Shown: positions 12,889 through 23,062 of the stretch, one piece after another
Layout: each line of letters starts with the position of its first letter
Numbering within the stretch: the stretch's first letter is position 1
DNA from: Methylomonas koyamae
GTDB taxonomy: Bacteria > Pseudomonadota > Gammaproteobacteria > Methylococcales > Methylomonadaceae
Direction of reading: 5' to 3'
Length of the DNA: 64,000 nt
Assembly (NCBI RefSeq): GCF_006483455.1
Contig: NZ_PPPU01000001.1
Location: 1 to 64,000 of the forward strand
Notes under the pieces: model-generated
The model's database searches: none
What the model was told of the DNA's origin: nothing
Seen by the model: only the letters and a program-made list of their open reading frames with translations
Position numbers and translations under genes: made by a program

Positions 12889-13380
12889 TTATTGCAGATT
12901 CGGCAGGGTATAGACGTAGTCGGCGTCCTTCATCGGCGCGTGGCAGGCGAAGCAAGGCGCTGATTGCTCCTTGTCGTACATTTTCAAAGTCTTGCCTTCC
13001 CAGATACCGAAGCCCCAACCGCCGGTCTCAGCGTATTTCTTGCTGTCTTTGACCATCGCTTCGGCGGCGGTAAATTCGCCGGGCACCGAGGCTTGTTCCC
13101 AATTCGGATGCTTGCGCTCGGCCCATTTGATCTTGGCGATAATGCTGCCGTCCGGCCAGGGCTTGGTCTTGCCGGCCCGCGCGGCATTGATGGTGATGTC
13201 GTTGCCGACGATCGCCCGCATGCTGTTCTTCTCGTGGCGTAGCGACACGCCCAACAGCCGCCAATCCCGATATTCGCCGTGCTCCGGTTTCGCCGCCGGC
13301 ACGGTTTCGGCGGCAACGCCATTGGCAACCAAAATCAAAGCGGCGGCCAGCAGCCGGCCGCCGGAAATCGTTTTGTACAT
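12889..13380 (-). CDS. Cytochrome P460 family protein
   Basis: The 163-residue periplasmic heme protein has an N-terminal signal peptide (about residues 1-25, cleaved after VAAE). One c-type heme site, C143-F-A-C146-H147, lies close to the C-terminus, the hallmark arrangement of the P460/cytochrome c'-beta family. P460 enzymes oxidise hydroxylamine using a heme cross-linked to a lysine; cytochrome c'-beta lacks the cross-link and binds NO. Lysines K83 and K85 lie in a strand where a cross-linking Lys could sit, but only an alignment can decide. An excellent ribosome site (GGAGGGTG) fixes the ATG at 13380. A role in detoxifying hydroxylamine or NO formed during ammonia co-oxidation is likely in a methanotroph. 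Confidence 0.88.
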   Translation of the reverse strand: MYKTISGGRLLAAALILVANGVAAETVPAAKPEHGEYRDWRLLGVSLRHEKNSMRAIVGNDITINAARAGKTKPWPDGSIIAKIKWAERKHPNWEQASVPGEFTAAEAMVKDSKKYAETGGWGFGIWEGKTLKMYDKEQSAPCFACHAPMKDADYVYTLPNLQ

Positions 13381-13511
13381 ACACCCTCCGTTAATAGTCA
13401 TGTAAACCAGCGGCGCGGATTGTAACGGCTCCATAGGGCGGCGACCAATACAAAACCGCAAAGCCCGGCCAGTATTTCTTCAGCCAGCCGCCCTCAATGT
13501 CGTTAAGAGCT

Positions 13512-13712: not shown

Positions 13713-13763
13713 TAAACGGCTGTTTAGAATGTGAAGTTAATCTCAAACTTCATAAACTCAACG

Positions 13764-14837
13764 ATGCGCGATACTTTTCATTCCTCAAGCCCGGTGATTC
13801 CAGCAGCCGATAGCCGCCGGCTATGGGTGCTGGTCGCGCTGATGGCAGTGGCTGGCTGGTTTTTGTTGACGAATGTCCAACGCGACGGTTTGAGCAGCGG
13901 TTTCGCCCATCCGTTTGCCGGTAACGATCATTTGGTCACGATGTTGGCGGTTGGCATCTGGGCCGCACAATTACGCGGGCATGCGATTTGGATGCTGCCG
14001 GCCACGTTCGTCGGCGTCATGAGCCTGGGCGGTCTGGCCGGAGCGCTCGGCTGCTACCTGCCACAGATCGAAACGATTGTTCTGCTGTCATGCGCCGTAT
14101 TCGGCATATTGATCGTGCGCAACCTGCGCTTCAGCACCAATACCAACTTAGCGATCGTTGCATTGTTCGGTTTTTGCCACGGCTTTGCCCACGGCCAGGA
14201 GATTTCGGCTTCCGCCGGTTTGATTTCTTACGTGTGCGGTTTCGTATCGGCAACTTTGCTATTGCACGGCGCCGGGATCGTCTTCACCAAAGGCGTAGTA
14301 TTGGCGGTGGGCTGTTTTTTCTCGATGACGCTGGCGCAACAGCCTGCAATCGGTGCGGTAAAGGTGAATATTCCGGACGCGCTGCTCGCCGTTTCCAAGC
14401 GGATGCAGACCGAAGCCGTGGAGCGGGTTCAAGCGCGGTTCAGGCAAACGGCCCCTGCCGACGCCGGATGCTTCCCGCCCCAAATCGAATCGGCGCCGCC
14501 GGCCGCGGTTGCTTACCGATTCAGACGGCTATTTCCGGAGATTAACCACTCGCCGGGTTTGAGCATGACCAGTAACGGCGTCGGCCGTACCTCGCCGCCG
14601 CCATTGCCTGTTATTACCGTATCGCTAGCCTCGTCCGCCATACTGCTCGCGCCCCAGCCCTCGACGGCATTGGCCCCTGCTCCATCTCCCGCTTTCAGCC
14701 TTCCCGGCTTTCAGTGCGTTTGCACCAGTTTCTCCGCTGCCGCGCAACGGCAACTTCCGGCGATATCGCCAATGCTACCCGCCGCTAGTGGGTACTTTCC
14801 CGATTTTATTCAGCAATCAAGGCTCGCATACCCATGA
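13764..14837 (+). CDS. HupE/UreJ-type metal permease with long C-terminal tail
   Basis: The 357-residue protein has at its core (about residues 45-190) the HupE/UreJ signature: GFAHPFAGNDHL, the His-containing helix FGFCHGFAHGQE, and several membrane segments. That family transports nickel or cobalt, sometimes copper. Typical members have about 200 residues and end after the last helix. Here ~150 further residues follow, first a basic amphipathic part (about 205-245), then a Pro/Ala/Ser-rich stretch containing PPPLP. The tail ends in an ATGA overlap with the TonB receptor gene, which argues that the frame is translated to its end. ATG at 13764 is preferred; ATG at 13731 in the same frame is possible, and neither has a clear ribosome site. 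Confidence 0.7.
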   Translation: MRDTFHSSSPVIPAADSRRLWVLVALMAVAGWFLLTNVQRDGLSSGFAHPFAGNDHLVTMLAVGIWAAQLRGHAIWMLPATFVGVMSLGGLAGALGCYLPQIETIVLLSCAVFGILIVRNLRFSTNTNLAIVALFGFCHGFAHGQEISASAGLISYVCGFVSATLLLHGAGIVFTKGVVLAVGCFFSMTLAQQPAIGAVKVNIPDALLAVSKRMQTEAVERVQARFRQTAPADAGCFPPQIESAPPAAVAYRFRRLFPEINHSPGLSMTSNGVGRTSPPPLPVITVSLASSAILLAPQPSTALAPAPSPAFSLPGFQCVCTSFSAAAQRQLPAISPMLPAASGYFPDFIQQSRLAYP

Positions 14838-17257
14838 AAATTCCAGAGCAACTCGCCAAAACCGTATTGGCGTTTACCATCGCTTCCGTCGTCGGACCTA
14901 GCGTTAAAGCAGACCCGCGCGCGACTACCGCGCCCGCTAAAGACAAAGCCCAGGATTCGGCGCAAACGTTGAGCGAAGTGGTCGTCGATTCGGAAACAGG
15001 CAAACCCAAGTTTCCCAACACCACCAAAGCCACGCCAAGTTTGACGGTAAACCGGGCGGATATCGAAACCAAAGTCAACGAAGTTACCATCGAGGACGCG
15101 TTGCGCTACCTTCCCGGCGTCAACGTCCGTCGCCGCTACCCGGGCGATGCGAACGCGCCGATCGCGATGCGCGGTTCAAATATCACCCAGTCCGCCCATA
15201 CCATGGTGTTCGCGGACGGCATGCCGATTTACAACATGGTCAACGCCGGCCACACCGCCGCACCGCGCTGGTCGATGGTCGCGCCGAACGAAATCGAATC
15301 GGTCGACGTGCTGTTCGGGCCATTTTCCAGTCAGTACGACGGCCACTCGTTCGGCGGCGTGATTAATTTCAACACCCGCATGCCGGATAAATTCGAAGCG
15401 GAAATGAGCGCCACCGGCATCTTTCAGGACATGCACCGCGGCGGCCGCGATCAGGTATTGCAGGGGTTTCGTACCTTCGTGTCCGGCGGCGACCGTATCG
15501 ATAAATTTCGGGTGTACCTGTCATACAACCACATGGAAAACCAAGGCCAACCGATGGACCCGATCGGCACATCAGCCGCCTCGCGTGGTTTACCGAGCAA
15601 TCTGGCCGCCGGCGCCACGGCCATCCCGGTCACCGGGGCACAACTGATTCCGAGCCCGACCGGCGGCCGGAATTTTATTTTCGGCGACTCGGGCATCGAT
15701 CGGGCCGAAACCGATTTGTTTAAACTGAAAACCTCTTACGACCTGACGGATGACTTGCAGGCTCGATTTACTATTGCCTACGAAGAACGTAACAGATACA
15801 ACAACGATCCGCTGGCCCTGTCCAAAAGCTCTGCCACCGGGCAAACCCTGTTTAGCAATAGCACCAACAACAACGGGCGTTTTACCAATTACTATACGCA
15901 AGACGGCTATAACTTCACGGTGCCGTTGAATGGCTTCCGTTTGCAGGAACAGAACCGCCAAGCCTTGAATTACGGCTTGAGCCTGAAAGGCAAGATCAGC
16001 GAGCGCTGGCACATCGACACCACGGCCAGCTTTTACGACGCCTTTAAGGATACCAGCCTGCAATCCCGGGGTGCCCAACTGGACCCCAACGCCCTGGTCG
16101 CCGGCCAGTTGCCGGGACAAATCACCGATGTCAGTACCTGGTGGGCGACTTACGACCTGAAACTCGCCACCGACCAGTTATTCGGCCGCGACGATTTATC
16201 CTTTATGGGCGGCTACCAGTTGGTGCACGGCAACAATAATAACCGGGTCTATGACAGCAGCGTTTATGCGAGCGGCATGCGCGGTAACGAAGTCAGCGAC
16301 TCGGGCGGACAAACCCAGACCAACAGCTTGTTTTCGCAGCTCGAATGGCGTTTCCTGCCGGATTGGAGCGTAATGGCCGGCTTGCGCTACGATCATTTTC
16401 AGACGATAGGCGGCCATTTTTACAACTACAACCGTAGCGCTACCGACGTCAGGCGCATCCAGAATTACGAAGACCGCAGCCAGGCCCGCATCTCGCCTAA
16501 AGCCGCGATCGAGTATTCGCCGGATAATTGAACTTTGCGTTATTCGTTCTCCAAAGCCTATCGTTTTCCGGTGGCTGAAGAATTATTTGCCAGCAAGAAT
16601 ACCGTCGCCGGAACCACATTCTCCGATCCAAACCTGGGGCCGGAAAATGGTTATTTTCATAACTTCATGGTTCAGTACGACCTGCACCAGGGCTTGGTCA
16701 GGGCCAACTTTTTTTACGACCAAATCAACGATGAAATATTTTCCTATAACCCGCTGCTGGCGGGCGGCAACGGGCCGAACACCTATCTGGCCATCGGGCA
16801 AACCGAATCGATCGGTGTCGATTTGACGTATCAGAAATACGGTTTGTTCGGCCTGCCGCTGGATTTTGCAGCCAATACCATTTTCCTGAACAAGCAAATC
16901 GTCAATAATCCCCAGGCGCCGGGGCTGGCCGGTAACGAGTGGCCGCGGACGCCTCGTTTGCAGGCCAATGTTCAGGCGACTTACCATATACTGCCGGAAT
17001 GGGATGTCACGCCATCGGTCCGCTACCGTAGCGACATGTTCCACCAAATTACCAACGTCGATACGGAAGCCAACGTATTCAACGGCTCGGACGAATACAC
17101 GCTGGTGGATTTCAAAACCAACTACAGACTGCCGACATACCACAATCTGAAAAGCACGATGTCGGCCGGTATCGATAATATTCTGGACCAGGATGTCTAC
17201 GAAAATAATCCGCTGGCGCAACGCACCTACTATGTCAGCTTATCCGTTAAGTACTAA
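14834..17257 (+). pseudogene. TonB-dependent outer-membrane receptor interrupted by one in-frame TGA
   Basis: Two open segments in the same frame (14834-16528 and 16532-17257) are separated only by TGA at 16529-16531. Together they make a normal ~800-residue receptor: signal peptide, plug domain with VEDALRYLPGV-like and DGMPIY motifs (about residues 50-170), a 22-strand barrel, and a C-terminal Tyr (SLSVKY). At the stop the sequence reads PDN-stop-TLRYSFSKAYRFP. In related receptors this position is usually Trp, so a TGG to TGA change is the simplest explanation. The rest shows no decay. It may be a recent pseudogene, a sequencing error, or a readthrough case. The start overlaps the hupE-like gene and the stop is 16 nt before the ABC ATPase gene, so it belongs to one operon, presumably for uptake of a metal chelate. 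Confidence 0.85.
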
Positions 17258-17273
17258 ACCCAACTGTTCAGCC

Positions 17274-17996
17274 ATGACGACAACCCACATTCTCGAAACC
17301 CGCAATCTGGTGGTGGAATACCAACAGCATCGGGCGATCGACCAACTGAATTTAGCGGTACCTGCGGGCTGCGTTTACGCCTTGCTGGGCGGCAACGGCG
17401 CCGGCAAAACCACGACGATCAGCACCTTCTTGGGATTTAACCGTCCCAGCAGCGGCCAGGTCTTGATCGGCGGCCGCTCGCTGCAGGACCAACCGGAGCT
17501 GGTCAAGTCCGAACTGGCCTATCTGCCGGAAAACGTGGCCTTGTACGACCTGCTCAGCGGCGCGGAAAACCTGCGGTTTTTCTGTGCGCTGGCCGGAATC
17601 GAATTGAACCGGGACCAGGCCGGCCGGCTGTTGAGCGACAGCGGCTTGCAGGCGGATGCCCACGACAAGCGGGTCGGCCACTATTCCAAAGGTATGCGGC
17701 AAAAGGTCGGTTTGGCGATCGCCAGCGCCAAGCACGCCAAAGCCATGTTGCTGGACGAGCCCACCTCCGGCCTGGACCCGAGCGCCGCCAACGATTTTGC
17801 CCAACGCATCCGCGCCGCGGCGGACGGCGGCATGGCGGTGTTAATGGCGACCCACGATTTGTTCAACGCCAAGCAAGTCGCGGACCGCATCGGCATCATG
17901 AAGCAAGGCCGGCTGGTCGAGGAGTTCGATGCCCACAGCGTGCAACACGACGAATTGGAAAGCAAATATCTGGCGCATGCCCGGGGGTTGGCATGA
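17274..17996 (+). CDS. ABC transporter ATP-binding protein (ABC-2 type)
   Basis: The 240-residue single ATPase domain has Walker A GGNGAGKTT, signature YSKGMRQKV and Walker B AMLLDEPTSGLD, with the switch His in ATHDL. It resembles NosF/CcmA-type ATPases that pair with ABC-2 membrane subunits. The ATG at 17274 is used rather than the far upstream ones inside the receptor gene, since family homology starts at HILETRNL. It follows the receptor by 16 nt and overlaps the next permease gene by ATGA. Substrate unknown. Confidence 0.88.
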   Translation: MTTTHILETRNLVVEYQQHRAIDQLNLAVPAGCVYALLGGNGAGKTTTISTFLGFNRPSSGQVLIGGRSLQDQPELVKSELAYLPENVALYDLLSGAENLRFFCALAGIELNRDQAGRLLSDSGLQADAHDKRVGHYSKGMRQKVGLAIASAKHAKAMLLDEPTSGLDPSAANDFAQRIRAAADGGMAVLMATHDLFNAKQVADRIGIMKQGRLVEEFDAHSVQHDELESKYLAHARGLA

Positions 17997-19405
17997 TCGC
18001 CATTGTCATGCGCAAGGAGCTGGCCACTACGTTGCGCGACGGCCGTTTGCTGGTGCTGGGCCTGTCGCTGTTTGTTTTGTTCGCCGGCTTTTTTCTGTTT
18101 TCCAGTTACCAGTTGCAGGCACAGCGCCAGGAAAAACAGCGCGTCGGCGCGACGGCCAAGGAACAGTGGAATTCGCAGAGCGTCAAGAATCCCCATGCCG
18201 CCGCGCACTACGGTATTTACGTGTTCAAGCCGGATTTGCCCAGCGCGGCGATAGATCCTGGCTTGACGCCGTTTACCGGTCAGTCGCTGTGGCTGGAGCC
18301 GCACAAACGCAACCTGACCCGTTTCAATCCGAGTGCCGACGACGTATTGGCCAATCGATTCGGACAGGCCAGCAGCAGCTTCGTGCTTTATGCCTTGTTG
18401 CCGCTGTTGATCGTCGCGCTCAGTTTCAATTCGGTGTCGCAAGAGCGCGAACGCGGCACCTTGCGCATGTTGCATAGTTTAGGAGTGGCGCCGCGGGCCT
18501 TGTTGTTCGGCAAGTTGCTCGGGCTGTTGACGGCGTTCTGGCTGGTGATGTCGCCCGCCGTGTTACTGGCGGCGCTGACGCTGGCCGGCCAATTCGAGCT
18601 GGCTATCGACGACCTGCTGCGTTTGAGTTTACTGCTGGCCGGCCTGCTGGCGTATTACACGGTGTTCGCCGCCTTGTCGATTGCCGCCTCCGCCTACTTT
18701 CGCACCAGCCGCAACACCTTGTTTTGCTTGCTGGGGTTCTGGATGGGCAGCGTGTTCGTCGCTCCGCGGCTGGGCGCCGCGATCGGCGATGTGCTTGCGC
18801 CCAACCCCAGTGCCAGCCAATTTTGGGATGCGATCAAGACCGATATCGCCCAAGGCCTGCCCGGCGACGGCTCCAAGCAACAACGCGAAACGGCCTTCGA
18901 AGCCCAAGTGCTGACCCAATACGGCGTTGCCAGCAAAGAACAGCTACCGGTGGGTTTTGTCTCGCTGAATCGGCAATATAACGACGTTTACTCCAGCAAA
19001 GTCCACCAGTTGCATTTCGATCGCCTGCGCGCCAACTTCGCCACTCAACAGCAACTGGCGCATCTGGCCGGTTGGCTGGGGCCCAGCCTGGCGCTGCGTT
19101 CGTTGTCGATGGCCATAGCCGGCACCGATTTGGCGCACCAACGCGATTTCGAAGACGCCGCCGAGAGATATCGGCGTTATTTCATCGATCTGACCGAAGA
19201 CTGGGACCGCGAACGCAGCCACGGCACCGAACGCTCCGCCAAAGGCGCGGAAACCGATTGGCGCAGCGTGCGAGACTTTGCTTACGCCGTTCCCACGGTC
19301 GGATTTTCGCTAAAAGCCAGCCTGCTGCCGCTAGCGGTGCTGGGCGCCTGGTTGGGGGCGGCACTGTGGCTGTTGGCCAATTCGGCACGGAGGTTGGCAC
19401 CATGA
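17993..19405 (+). CDS. ABC-2 type permease with large extracytoplasmic loop (DUF3526-like), first subunit
   Basis: The 470-residue membrane protein starts with a short basic N-terminus and a membrane helix (about residues 20-40), followed by an extracytoplasmic part. Five further helices are packed between about 120 and 270, and a second large loop (about 270-430) precedes a final C-terminal helix. The SFNSVSQERERGTLRMLHS motif at the start of the second helix region is typical of ABC-2 permeases of the NosY/DUF3526 type. It overlaps both neighbours by ATGA. It likely forms a heterodimer with the next gene product. Confidence 0.82.
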   Translation: MIAIVMRKELATTLRDGRLLVLGLSLFVLFAGFFLFSSYQLQAQRQEKQRVGATAKEQWNSQSVKNPHAAAHYGIYVFKPDLPSAAIDPGLTPFTGQSLWLEPHKRNLTRFNPSADDVLANRFGQASSSFVLYALLPLLIVALSFNSVSQERERGTLRMLHSLGVAPRALLFGKLLGLLTAFWLVMSPAVLLAALTLAGQFELAIDDLLRLSLLLAGLLAYYTVFAALSIAASAYFRTSRNTLFCLLGFWMGSVFVAPRLGAAIGDVLAPNPSASQFWDAIKTDIAQGLPGDGSKQQRETAFEAQVLTQYGVASKEQLPVGFVSLNRQYNDVYSSKVHQLHFDRLRANFATQQQLAHLAGWLGPSLALRSLSMAIAGTDLAHQRDFEDAAERYRRYFIDLTEDWDRERSHGTERSAKGAETDWRSVRDFAYAVPTVGFSLKASLLPLAVLGAWLGAALWLLANSARRLAP

Positions 19406-20784
19406 TGGCTATCGTCAAAGTGGAATGGATCAGAATCCGGCGCAATCCGCTGAACGCGGCGATATTACTGATTTTTGCGGTCTTGATGGGGCTCAGCGCC
19501 GTCTGGTCCGGGCTCAGGGCCAGCGAGATTCGCGCTGCCGCGGCGGCGCCGCAAATCGCGGCATCGGCCGCCAATGCCGCGGAAATGCACGACGCGCCGA
19601 AGGCGGACGCGCATGACGGCGGCGATGGGGCCTACGCCGCCAGCAACGACCGGGCACCACTGCAATTGCCGCTGCTGGGCGGTTTGGTGCTGAATGTCAG
19701 CCAAGCCGATTTGGTCGGCACGTCCATTAAAGTCTCCAGTCGCAGCCGCCATACCGACGGCCGCAACAGCGACCAATTGTTCAATCCGTTGAGTTACGAA
19801 TTCGGTTTACTGGACTTTGCCAGCGTGTTCGCGCTGTTGACGCCGCTGGTCGTCATCGCCTTGAGCTACGGCTTGGTGCAGGAGGAACGCGAAAGCGGGG
19901 TCTGGCGCCTGGTCTGCACCCAAACCGCGCGGCCGTGGCAATTGGTGTTGTGCAGCCTGGGCTGGCGTTTGCTGTTGGTGGCGCTGGTCGCTTGCGCCAG
20001 TTCGCTGCTGGCGTTTTTGCTGGATAGCGGTTCTGACCTGGCGGCGCTGGCTTACTGGTGTTTGATCAGCCTGAGCTACGTGCTGTTCTGGTTCAGTCTG
20101 GCCGGCTTGTTCCTGCTGCTGCCGATTTCTTCGGGCGCGGCGGCGATAGGCTTGCTCGGCAGTTGGCTGATCTTGACCTTCGGCGTGCCGGCGACGCTGC
20201 ATTGGGCCGCCGACCAGACCCGGCCCAAGCCGTCGCGCATGGCCGCCATTATCGAAATCCGCCGGTTGCAGGAACTCTCCAACCAGCAGCGGCAAAATTT
20301 GCTGGCGGACTGGTTTAAGGCCCATCCCGAGCTGCTGGGCGACACGCCGCTTGCCAAGCTGTCGCGGGAAGTCGCCGGCTTGCCGGCCGCCCTGGAACTG
20401 GACAGCCAGATTCGGCCGCTGATGCTGCAATTCGAAACCCACCGCGCCGAGCAATTCGGATTCATGCAACGCTGGTCCTGGACTTCGCCGGCCTTGGCCG
20501 TGGCGTTGATGGCGGATCGTTTATCCGGCCTGGACGCACCCCGGCACGCCAGCTTCGTCGCCGCCGTCAACGATTTCGAAGACCGCTGGCGAGCGTACTT
20601 CGTGCCGTCCATCATGGCCCGCGCCGCCTGGAGCGAAGCGCAGCAAGCGGCGCCGCCGCAATTCGATTTCGATCAGTCCTTCGACATTGCCGAGCTCAAC
20701 GGCCTGATCGGCTTGCAGGCGCTCTCGGCGGCATCGATGCTGGCAGTTCTGCTCGCGCTACGGCAGCGCTTCTCGCAATTTTAG
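19402..20784 (+). CDS. ABC-2 type permease (DUF3526-like), second subunit
   Basis: The 460-residue protein is a paralogue of the preceding permease: N-terminal helix (about 15-35), loop, then LSYGLVQEERESGVWRLV, which matches the equivalent motif in the first subunit, four to five helices to about residue 265, a large loop and a last helix. Starts ATG at 19402 or 19405; the ATGA overlap with the previous stop supports coupled translation. Together with the ATPase it makes a complete ABC-2 transporter. Direction of transport is not shown by the sequence; DUF3526 systems are generally assumed to be exporters or membrane-assembly systems. Confidence 0.82.
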   Translation: MMAIVKVEWIRIRRNPLNAAILLIFAVLMGLSAVWSGLRASEIRAAAAAPQIAASAANAAEMHDAPKADAHDGGDGAYAASNDRAPLQLPLLGGLVLNVSQADLVGTSIKVSSRSRHTDGRNSDQLFNPLSYEFGLLDFASVFALLTPLVVIALSYGLVQEERESGVWRLVCTQTARPWQLVLCSLGWRLLLVALVACASSLLAFLLDSGSDLAALAYWCLISLSYVLFWFSLAGLFLLLPISSGAAAIGLLGSWLILTFGVPATLHWAADQTRPKPSRMAAIIEIRRLQELSNQQRQNLLADWFKAHPELLGDTPLAKLSREVAGLPAALELDSQIRPLMLQFETHRAEQFGFMQRWSWTSPALAVALMADRLSGLDAPRHASFVAAVNDFEDRWRAYFVPSIMARAAWSEAQQAAPPQFDFDQSFDIAELNGLIGLQALSAASMLAVLLALRQRFSQF

Positions 20785-20980
20785 CGTTGGCGGCTCCGGT
20801 CCCGGTCGGTACACAACACCGCGATCTTGCCTATGGGCAAGCGCGATGCGGCCGGACCGGCTGCACTCGGTTGCGAACGGCAGGGTTTTAGGGATAAAGC
20901 GCCTGCCGCGAACGCCGGCGGCGTGCTACCATTTTGCGAAATCCATCGCATCCCAATCCGACTTTCAGACAGGAATCGTC

Positions 20981-23062
20981 ATGTCAGGCAACAAGCACTC
21001 GCTTCCCATCAACCTATTCTGGGGCCTCGTCGCTCTGGCCGCGGCCGGCGCCATCGCCGGTATTGCTTTGCAGCGCGGCGAAACCATCAGCAGCATGTGG
21101 CTGATCGTCGCCGCAGTCTGCGTTTACGCGCTCGGCTACCGCTTTTACAGCGCCTTCGTCGCCGCCAAAGTCCTGGTGCTCGATGCCAGCCGCGCCACGC
21201 CGGCCGAACGCTTCGACGATGGCCGCGACTTCATGCCCACCCACAAATGGGTGGTGTTCGGCCACCATTTCGCCGCCATCGCCGGCCCCGGCCCGTTGAT
21301 CGGGCCGACGCTGGCGGCCCAGTTCGGCTATCTGCCGGGCACCTTGTGGATCCTGATCGGCGCGGTGCTGGGCGGCTGCGTGCAGGACTTCGTGACCCTG
21401 TTTTTCTCGGTCAGGCGCGACGGCCGCTCGCTGGGGCAGATGGCCAAGGACGAATTGGGCAACATTGGCGGCGGCGCCGCGATGCTGGGCGTGATGACGA
21501 TTATGGTGATCCTGATTGCGGTGCTGGGCCTGGTCGTAGTCAATGCGATGAAACACAGCCCCTGGGCGACCGCCACCGTCGCCGCGACGATACCGATCGC
21601 GATGTTGATGGGCATGTATCTGAACCATTTGCGGCCGGGGCGGGTACTGGAAGCGACGCTGATCGGCGTGTCGTTACTGGTGTTTGCCGTGGTCGGCGGC
21701 GGCTGGATCGACGAAAACCCTGCCATTCGCGGCTGGTTCGATTACGACGCGCCGGAACTGGCGTTGATGGTGATTGGTTACGGCTTCGCCGCCGCGGTGT
21801 TGCCGGTCTGGCTGCTGCTGGCGCCGCGCGACTACCTGTCCACCTTCATGAAACTGGGCACCATTGCCGCGCTGGCCGTGGCGATTCTGATCTTGCGGCC
21901 CGAGCTGAAAATGCCGGCCTTGACCCAGTTTATCGACGGCAGCGGCCCGATCTTCGGCGGCAAACTGTTTCCGTTCGTGTTCATCACCATCGCCTGCGGC
22001 GCAATTTCCGGCTTTCATGCGCTGATTTCGTCGGGCACCACGCCCAAGTTGCTGGCTAACGAAACCGACGCCCGTTTTATCGGCTACGGCGCAATGATGA
22101 TGGAATCCTTTGTCGCGATCATGGCGATGATCGCGGCGTCGGTGTTGGAGCCGGGGGTTTATTTCGCCATCAACAGCCCGGCCGGCGTGGTCGGCAAGGA
22201 AGCGGCGGAAGCGGTGGCGAAAATCAGCAGCTGGGGCTTTCCGGTGGCCGTCGAGCAAATGCAGCAACTGGCGCAGACCATGGGCGAATCGACCTTGTTC
22301 GCCCGCACCGGCGGCGCGCCGTCGCTGGCGGTCGGCATGGCCAGTTTGTTCGCCCAGGTGTTCGGCCAACATCTGCTGGCGGCCTGGTACCATTTCGCGA
22401 TCATGTTCGAAGCCTTGTTCATCCTGACCACGCTGGACGCCGGCACCCGCGTCGCCCGCTTCATGCTGCAGGATATCCTCGGTAACTTCAATATCGGCCG
22501 TGGCAGCAGCGGCGGTTATGCCAGCATCTTACTGACCAGCGCCGCCGTGGTTGGCGCTTGGGGCTATTTCCTGTACATGGGCGCGATCGATCCGCTGGGC
22601 GGCATCAACAGCCTGTGGCCCCTGTTCGGCATCGCCAACCAAATGCTGGCGGCGATCGCGCTGTGCGTGGCGACGACGATTCTGGTCAAATCCGGCAAGC
22701 TCAGGTACGCCTGGGTGACCGCCCTGCCGCTGTCTTGGCTGATTATCGTCACCAGCAGCGCGGCCTGGCAGAAATTGTTCGCCGAGGATTTACGCATCGG
22801 TTTTCTGGCGCACGCCGCCGATTTGTCCGCAAAAATCGCCAGCGGTTCGCTGCCGGCCGCGCAACTAAAAAATGCCCCGCAATTGATTTTCAACGATTAC
22901 CTGAACGCCGGCCTGACCTGCCTGTTCATGCTGATCACCTGGCTGCTGCTGGCCGACATGCTGCGCGTGATCTACCGGGTAACCAGCGGCCAGCCCTACC
23001 CGCAATCCAGCGAGTCGCCGCATATACCGAGCCGGTTGGTGGAGAATTGGGTTAGGGATTGA
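20981..23062 (+). CDS. cstA: CstA-family carbon-starvation / pyruvate transporter
   Basis: The 693-residue inner-membrane protein has about 16-18 hydrophobic segments. Family motifs are clear: DGRDFMPTHKWVVFGHHFAAIAGPGPLIGP near residue 70 and FHALISSGTTPK near 350, matching CstA and YjiY/BtsT, which import pyruvate or peptides. ATG at 20981 is used because the upstream in-frame codons are not family-like and an AGGA ribosome site lies 7 nt before it. It stands alone, with a 196-nt upstream gap and an intrinsic terminator downstream. Exact substrate not determinable here. Confidence 0.9.
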   Translation: MSGNKHSLPINLFWGLVALAAAGAIAGIALQRGETISSMWLIVAAVCVYALGYRFYSAFVAAKVLVLDASRATPAERFDDGRDFMPTHKWVVFGHHFAAIAGPGPLIGPTLAAQFGYLPGTLWILIGAVLGGCVQDFVTLFFSVRRDGRSLGQMAKDELGNIGGGAAMLGVMTIMVILIAVLGLVVVNAMKHSPWATATVAATIPIAMLMGMYLNHLRPGRVLEATLIGVSLLVFAVVGGGWIDENPAIRGWFDYDAPELALMVIGYGFAAAVLPVWLLLAPRDYLSTFMKLGTIAALAVAILILRPELKMPALTQFIDGSGPIFGGKLFPFVFITIACGAISGFHALISSGTTPKLLANETDARFIGYGAMMMESFVAIMAMIAASVLEPGVYFAINSPAGVVGKEAAEAVAKISSWGFPVAVEQMQQLAQTMGESTLFARTGGAPSLAVGMASLFAQVFGQHLLAAWYHFAIMFEALFILTTLDAGTRVARFMLQDILGNFNIGRGSSGGYASILLTSAAVVGAWGYFLYMGAIDPLGGINSLWPLFGIANQMLAAIALCVATTILVKSGKLRYAWVTALPLSWLIIVTSSAAWQKLFAEDLRIGFLAHAADLSAKIASGSLPAAQLKNAPQLIFNDYLNAGLTCLFMLITWLLLADMLRVIYRVTSGQPYPQSSESPHIPSRLVENWVRD

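Follow-up and report, generated by a model that had tools for sequence, protein, structure and literature searches.

The locus and its genes

Five genes lie between positions 13764 and 20784 of the window, the 64,000-nucleotide stretch of Methylomonas koyamae DNA that was analyzed. Inspection of the sequence and its open reading frames (ORFs) places all five on the plus strand, co-directional and tightly packed. The hupE and TonB genes share an ATGA overlap (14834-14837), 16 nt separate the stop codon of the TonB gene from the ATPase ATG at 17274, and further ATGA overlaps join the ATPase gene to permease 1 (17993) and permease 1 to permease 2 (19402). The features are as follows.

12889-13461, minus strand: cytochrome P460 gene, divergent neighbor outside the locus (PF16694, 3.5e-36)
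13732-13752, no strand: perfect inverted repeat with 7-bp arms, TGAAGTT-AATCTCA-AACTTCA, just 5' of hupE; weak candidate operator
13764-14837, plus strand: hupE-L, HupE/UreJ permease of 357 aa with a long C-terminal tail (PF04955; orthologues in A1/A5)
14532-14600, plus strand: HupE-L tail motif FPEINHSPGLSMTSNGVGRTSPP, residues 257-279 (conservation, dN/dS)
14834-17257, plus strand: TonB-dependent receptor gene, interrupted; 807 codons in strain SURF-1 (Plug and barrel matches in two pieces)
16529-16531, plus strand: in-frame TGA in the receptor gene (TGG, Trp, in SURF-1 and FW.007)
17274-17996, plus strand: ABC ATPase (PF00005, 1.5e-26; alternative start at 17193, within the TonB gene)
17993-19405, plus strand: ABC-2 permease 1, ABC2_membrane_2 and DUF3526 (Pfam)
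19402-20784, plus strand: ABC-2 permease 2, ABC2_membrane_2 and DUF3526 (Pfam; alternative start at 19399)
20846-23062, plus strand: CstA (carbon starvation protein) gene, downstream neighbor outside the locus (PF02554)

A sequence-only reading of this DNA had described the same five genes at the same place and with the same spacings, and Pfam backs each of its assignments: a HupE/UreJ permease, a TonB receptor, an ABC ATPase, and two DUF3526 permeases. The permeases (DUF3526 E-values of 2e-29 and 1.5e-22), which that reading called paralogous, share about 27% identity. Together with an ATPase whose motifs read as intact (Walker A GGNGAGKTT, signature YSKGMRQK, Walker B AMLLDEPTSGLDP, and H-loop ATHD), they form an ABC-2/DUF3526 unit, referred to below as the ABC trio. 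The inverted repeat is present in SURF-1 with one spacer base different and was not found in the three more distant five-gene loci. The cytochrome P460 gene also adjoins the locus or the trio in SURF-1 and in genome G002; in the latter it stands beside the trio although hupE and the TonB gene have been lost there. In other species, an ilvE-like gene takes the position of CstA.

An in-frame stop codon interrupts the receptor gene

Both receptor domains are present, the plug (PF07715, 3e-17) and the barrel (PF00593, 5e-20), in a frame that is continuous except for the TGA at 16529-16531. As sequenced, the locus therefore consists of four intact genes and one interrupted gene, a point that the sequence-only reading overlooked. 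The receptor of the nearest relative, SURF-1 (G012), is 97.6% identical and has TGG at this position within a single open 807-aa frame; FW.007 also has Trp there. Codons behind the TGA remain conserved (dN/dS of 0.06, source genome versus SURF-1), indicating that the stop, if real, is recent. The TGA is either a very recent mutation or an error in the draft sequence. Unless it is such an error, the receptor is probably inactive in the source genome, and with it interrupted, the function of the locus there is doubtful.

HupE-L carries a long tail with a conserved motif

PF04955 covers residues 40 to 177 of HupE-L (2e-43; 148.4 bits against a cut-off of 23), whose core contains the motifs HPxxGxDH and HGFAHGxE. 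The same family is matched in 46 of 46 aligned relatives, and no other Pfam family is matched in any of them. The assignment to HupE/UreJ was thus right as first read, with a C-terminal tail of about 160 aa left unremarked. A structure model places the helices within residues 14 to 191 and leaves the tail mostly disordered, without confident structure. Within the tail, the motif FPxINHxPGxxLLSNGVGxTSPP is conserved across Methylococcales. In the Methylomonas methanica group, dN/dS is 0.08 for the core, 0.57 for the tail before the motif, 0.17 for the motif, and 0.72 behind it; the motif is kept while the remainder of the tail drifts.

We rejected an RNA or DNA element as the explanation of the motif and read it as protein, because its codons vary synonymously and its dN/dS is 0.17. 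In the same group, dS drops from about 0.78 to 0.50 over the motif and the tail segment that follows. An overlapping signal there as well is possible, and the drop may point to a signal in the RNA or for translation that precedes the TonB gene. In the locus HupE-L, the end of the last helix (...FFSMTLAQQPAIGAVK) lacks a clear AxA site, and for this reason we do not claim release of the tail; the N-terminal helix likewise has no evident cleavage site.

A second type of HupE tail, about 120 aa long, was seen in L160-L173, L180, L188, and L192, with an apparent extra membrane helix (...LLLVFSVSQFVCYVFYPKQ...) in place of the full motif. The tail in L159 has both the motif and the extra helix.

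The five-gene order is shared and repeatedly lost in Methylomonas

Among 36 Methylomonas members searched, 18 contain an orthologous ABC trio, counted at a permease 1 identity of at least 58%. HupE and TonB genes precede the trio in 5 of these 18 genomes (the source genome, SURF-1, SURF-2, FW.007, and M. methanica R-45363), the four other loci being 55 to 95% identical to the source in the HupE core and 75 to 98% in the receptor. This recurrence in four other genomes argues that the five-gene order is not due to chance. In a quick tree, the hupE-L genes of these five loci fall into more than one clade, a point against the two-module reading proposed below. The other 13 genomes have the trio without an intact HupE-TonB pair, and several genomes, with or without the pair, have the same yeiP-like and ilvE-like genes flanking the trio (ORF reading). 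In the Methylomonas loci read, HupE and an intact receptor of the locus type are either both present or both absent before the trio.

A C-terminal relic of the receptor lies directly before the ATPase gene in G002 (2e-12), G013 (8e-9), G025 (1e-6), and G023 (3e-4) and, weakly, in G035 (0.02). These relics, in 4 or 5 genomes, indicate recurrent loss of HupE and TonB, and repeated loss with retention of the trio is the simplest reading. Conservation of the gene order, the test that the sequence-only reading had set for itself, is therefore partial: the order is kept in 5 of 18 genomes and was lost, leaving receptor relics, in 4 or 5 others. The suggestion that one operon serves uptake and release fares similarly, since a receptor and permease do stand beside an ABC-2 unit, while an obligate single machine is not borne out; the trio, kept where HupE and TonB are lost, is independent of them.

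The locus might instead be a decaying remnant in which the receptor is dead, the HupE tail is drifting, and the ABC trio alone is in use. The in-frame TGA and the remnants of this receptor in related genomes point this way, as do a frameshift behind the motif in the SURF-1 HupE tail and a dN/dS for HupE of 0.26 (source genome versus SURF-1), above that of the other genes of the locus. However, all parts, including the receptor behind the stop, are under purifying selection in the same comparison (dN/dS of 0.06 to 0.26), and one TGA could come from a draft-assembly error. We regard decay, which is compatible with the other readings, as conceivable, though on the doubtful side.

The receptor and ABC trio form a common proteobacterial unit

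A sample of 399 genomes from across the phylum yielded homologues of the trio at E<1e-30 in 21. In most of the 20 loci read outside the source locus, the trio has a TonB receptor gene next to it: about 12 of the 20 have a profile or Pfam match and several more were recognized by sequence reading. Pfam confirms nine of these proteins as TonB receptors, and more matched the TonB profile. A TonB receptor, an ABC ATPase, and two DUF3526 permeases are a common unit across Proteobacteria. None of the 20 phylum-wide trio loci had a HupE match beside it. Within the family, paralogous trios lie in clusters of the ECF sigma/FecR/TonB/PepSY type (ORF reading). As the permease has no sequence match to any solved structure in the PDB and our literature search found no publication mentioning DUF3526, the predicted export direction of the ABC-2 unit is taken from its family.

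The wide distribution of this unit without HupE, the paralogous trios in ECF sigma/FecR/TonB/PepSY-type clusters, and the persistence of the trio where HupE and TonB are gone would also fit a receptor and ABC-2 unit for a siderophore or another metal-free nutrient, with hupE-L a mere neighbor and not part of one system. Yet HupE and the intact locus-type receptor come and go together, their genes overlap by ATGA in the source locus, receptor relics occupy the same spot, and pairing with TonB is usual for the HupE-L family. We consider two separate systems unlikely, although still to be reckoned with.

HupE-L relatives are linked to nickel or cobalt

Most Methylomonas members searched have at least one long-tail hupE gene, generally with a TonB gene next to it. 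NikR (PF08753, 1e-30) lies upstream in 14 of the 35 long-tail loci read (L116-L149, L055), and many of the 35 run on with genes for HupE/UreJ-2, ExbB, DUF2149, and a CobN-like protein. The HupE/UreJ-2 proteins of the NikR-linked loci have a periplasmic N-terminal domain, and this type has been described as a metal-binding "anglerase" permease (PMC12537917). More widely, HupE-TonB pairing recurs in Methylococcales and Nitrosomonas; in Methylococcales, pairs with an unrelated receptor occur commonly, in many cases together with NikR, a Ni-type "anglerase" HupE2, and a CobN-like gene. Such neighborhoods link proteins of the HupE-L type with nickel or cobalt. Members of the HupE/UreJ family have been reported as Ni transporters (PMC2667541), and from this family we infer Ni/Co transport for HupE-L. 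The source genome itself has a cluster of the order NikR, HupE-L, Ni-type TonB, HupE/UreJ-2 on contig C43 (22090-26682; L055:8090-12682), and CopC and a BNR-repeat protein are encoded on the same contig (L056).

The sequence-only reading had proposed a link to metal riboswitches or regulators as a check, and none appears at the five-gene locus. Neither NikR nor any other metal regulator gene is adjacent, a scan of the hupE promoter gave no NikR site above shuffled background, and no riboswitch or other Rfam RNA was found upstream of or within hupE. A sub-threshold match to an archaeal sRNA at hupE was judged to be chance. Moreover, BLASTP showed no similarity (E<1e-5) between the locus receptor and the NikR-linked receptors, and the neighbors of its relatives differ as well, so the nickel link of those receptors does not extend to the locus receptor. 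With NikR absent and the receptor unrelated, we rate nickel as no more than plausible for the five-gene locus. Relatives of the locus receptor have thioredoxin-like and BNR-repeat genes as neighbors or lie close to nif genes. One of them, 39% identical, is encoded on contig C17 of the source genome (L243:8520-10943), where it faces a thioredoxin-like gene with NifB-like genes near.

Copper in place of nickel or cobalt would make the receptor a methanotroph copper-uptake protein and HupE-L a copper permease. It could account for the thioredoxin-like and BNR-repeat proteins beside receptor relatives, for the BNR protein that adjoins CopC in the source genome's other HupE cluster, and for the one HupE/UreJ-2 protein that was studied in a Cu-loaded form (PMC12537917). 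Against it, the TonB-copper model TIGR01778 gives the locus receptor 34.6 bits, far under its cut-off of 472, and no copper regulator was seen at the locus; we consider copper quite improbable.

HupE and TonB receptors occur as single fused proteins

The most surprising part of the analysis is a group of relatives in which HupE and a TonB receptor share one ORF of 849 to 960 codons, found in 22 of 79 named loci with a HupE core. They include Methylotuvimicrobium buryatense 5G (L150:5124-7739), Methylomicrobium sp. wino1 (a complete chromosome), Methylobacter, and Nitrosomonas oligotropha Nm75 and Nm45; further examples are L196, L206, L207, and L217. PF04955 and Plug are both matched in 17 of 17 aligned members. 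In the five-gene locus, HupE and TonB are instead encoded by separate, ATGA-overlapping genes. A phylum-wide scan of 299 genomes gave no match spanning HupE and the receptor, the receptor itself being often found. A 984-aa frame in G261 was rejected as a fusion: it holds no HupE-TonB protein, and what looked like HupE is a frame that stays open by chance in GC-rich DNA next to a ureC-like sequence. Our literature search found no publication on HupE-TonB fusions.

In the fusions, the final HupE helix terminates in small-x-Ala at the junction, followed mostly by Gln or Glu; in one member, Gly replaces the last Ala. For M. buryatense 5GB1C, the predicted junction reads VHA|QA. On the basis of the conserved (-3,-1) pattern, the junction looks like a signal peptidase I site. 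Internal start codons do not account for the fusion, as L194, L208, L217, and L221 have no ATG, GTG, or TTG between the end of the previous helix and the putative cleavage site; in the M. buryatense fusion, an in-frame ATG does precede the helix. Helix count predicts that the C-terminal end of HupE is periplasmic in fused and split forms. In a structure model of a fused protein, the HupE half has low confidence, and the fold matches are TonB receptors. A quick tree, in which the root is long and uncertain, puts the fused forms outside the split, motif-bearing forms, making a single fusion that later split the shortest account. The Bradyrhizobium cytochrome b/c1 precursor, cleaved at a signal sequence within the protein, is a precedent for the predicted internal cleavage.

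The fused relatives are direct, Rosetta-stone evidence for coupling between HupE and the receptor, and they suggest an internal signal peptide by which one gene would supply proteins for two membranes. We tentatively propose, as somewhat short of an even chance, that HupE and TonB form an inner- and outer-membrane uptake pair, which many methanotrophs and Nitrosomonas would produce as one polyprotein, cleaved by signal peptidase I at the last HupE helix; this helix would act as the internal signal peptide. In Methylomonas, the pair would be split, and the periplasmic, possibly released tail, with its 23-residue motif under strong selection, would aid metal transfer from receptor to permease.

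A two-module model and its relation to known systems

We favor the reading, with the balance about even, that this is a Methylomonas locus for acquisition of a metal or metal chelate, in which two recurring modules share one receptor. The first is hupE-L directly before a TonB gene, as is usual for the HupE-L family in methanotrophs; in the second, the same receptor gene heads a TonB-ABC-DUF3526x2 unit. The receptor would import a metal chelate into the periplasm, HupE-L would carry the freed divalent metal (most likely Ni2+ or Co2+, possibly Cu) to the cytosol, and the ABC-2/DUF3526 pair would export or recycle a receptor-linked compound, either the chelator or a by-product. Gene content, order, linkage, conservation, the recurrent loss of HupE and TonB, and the receptor stop codon are observed; the metal, the direction of the ABC unit, and the joint function of the five genes are what we infer from families and neighborhoods. 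If functional, the pairing would couple an inner-membrane metal permease to its outer-membrane receptor, and few such couplings are known for nickel or cobalt. The TonB-ABC-2/DUF3526 unit to which the locus draws attention is itself widespread, and we found no function for it.

Compared with the HupE/UreJ nickel permeases, such as Rhizobium leguminosarum HupE, the locus HupE-L shares the core fold and motifs and differs in its long, disordered, motif-bearing tail and the TonB gene directly downstream, with no adjacent hydrogenase or urease genes and no evident N-terminal cleavage site. The NikR-linked HupE-L/TonB/HupE2 clusters (source genome C43, SURF-1 C1) have the same HupE-L type, tail motif, and adjacent TonB gene, whereas their receptor is unrelated, NikR lies upstream, and HupE2-ExbB-DUF2149-CobN in many of them replaces the ABC trio. 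The HupE::TonB fusions of Methylotuvimicrobium buryatense, Methylobacter, and N. oligotropha likewise place a homologous HupE core before a TonB receptor, but in a single frame with a signal peptidase-like junction, the NikR-linked receptor type, and neither motif tail nor ABC trio. Like HupE-L, the Ang-1 "anglerase"-HupE/UreJ-2 is a permease of the superfamily with an added extracytoplasmic part; there, however, the added domain is N-terminal and the permease belongs to PF13795 (PMC12537917). The locus HupE-L has no N-terminal His domain and scores 18.6 bits against PF13795, under the cut-off of 24.5.

FciTABC (PMC9047314) was set aside as a match to the locus, its operon having no ABC unit. 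The proteobacterial TonB-ABC-DUF3526x2 unit shares four of the five genes, in the same order in many genomes, and differs in its receptor subfamilies and, in the sample outside Methylomonas, in having no HupE beside it. The sequence-only reading did not recognize the combination as a named system; our literature search likewise gave no name for the five-gene combination, although both halves are recurrent. Each module is of an already known kind, and their five-gene combination is a Methylomonas variant.
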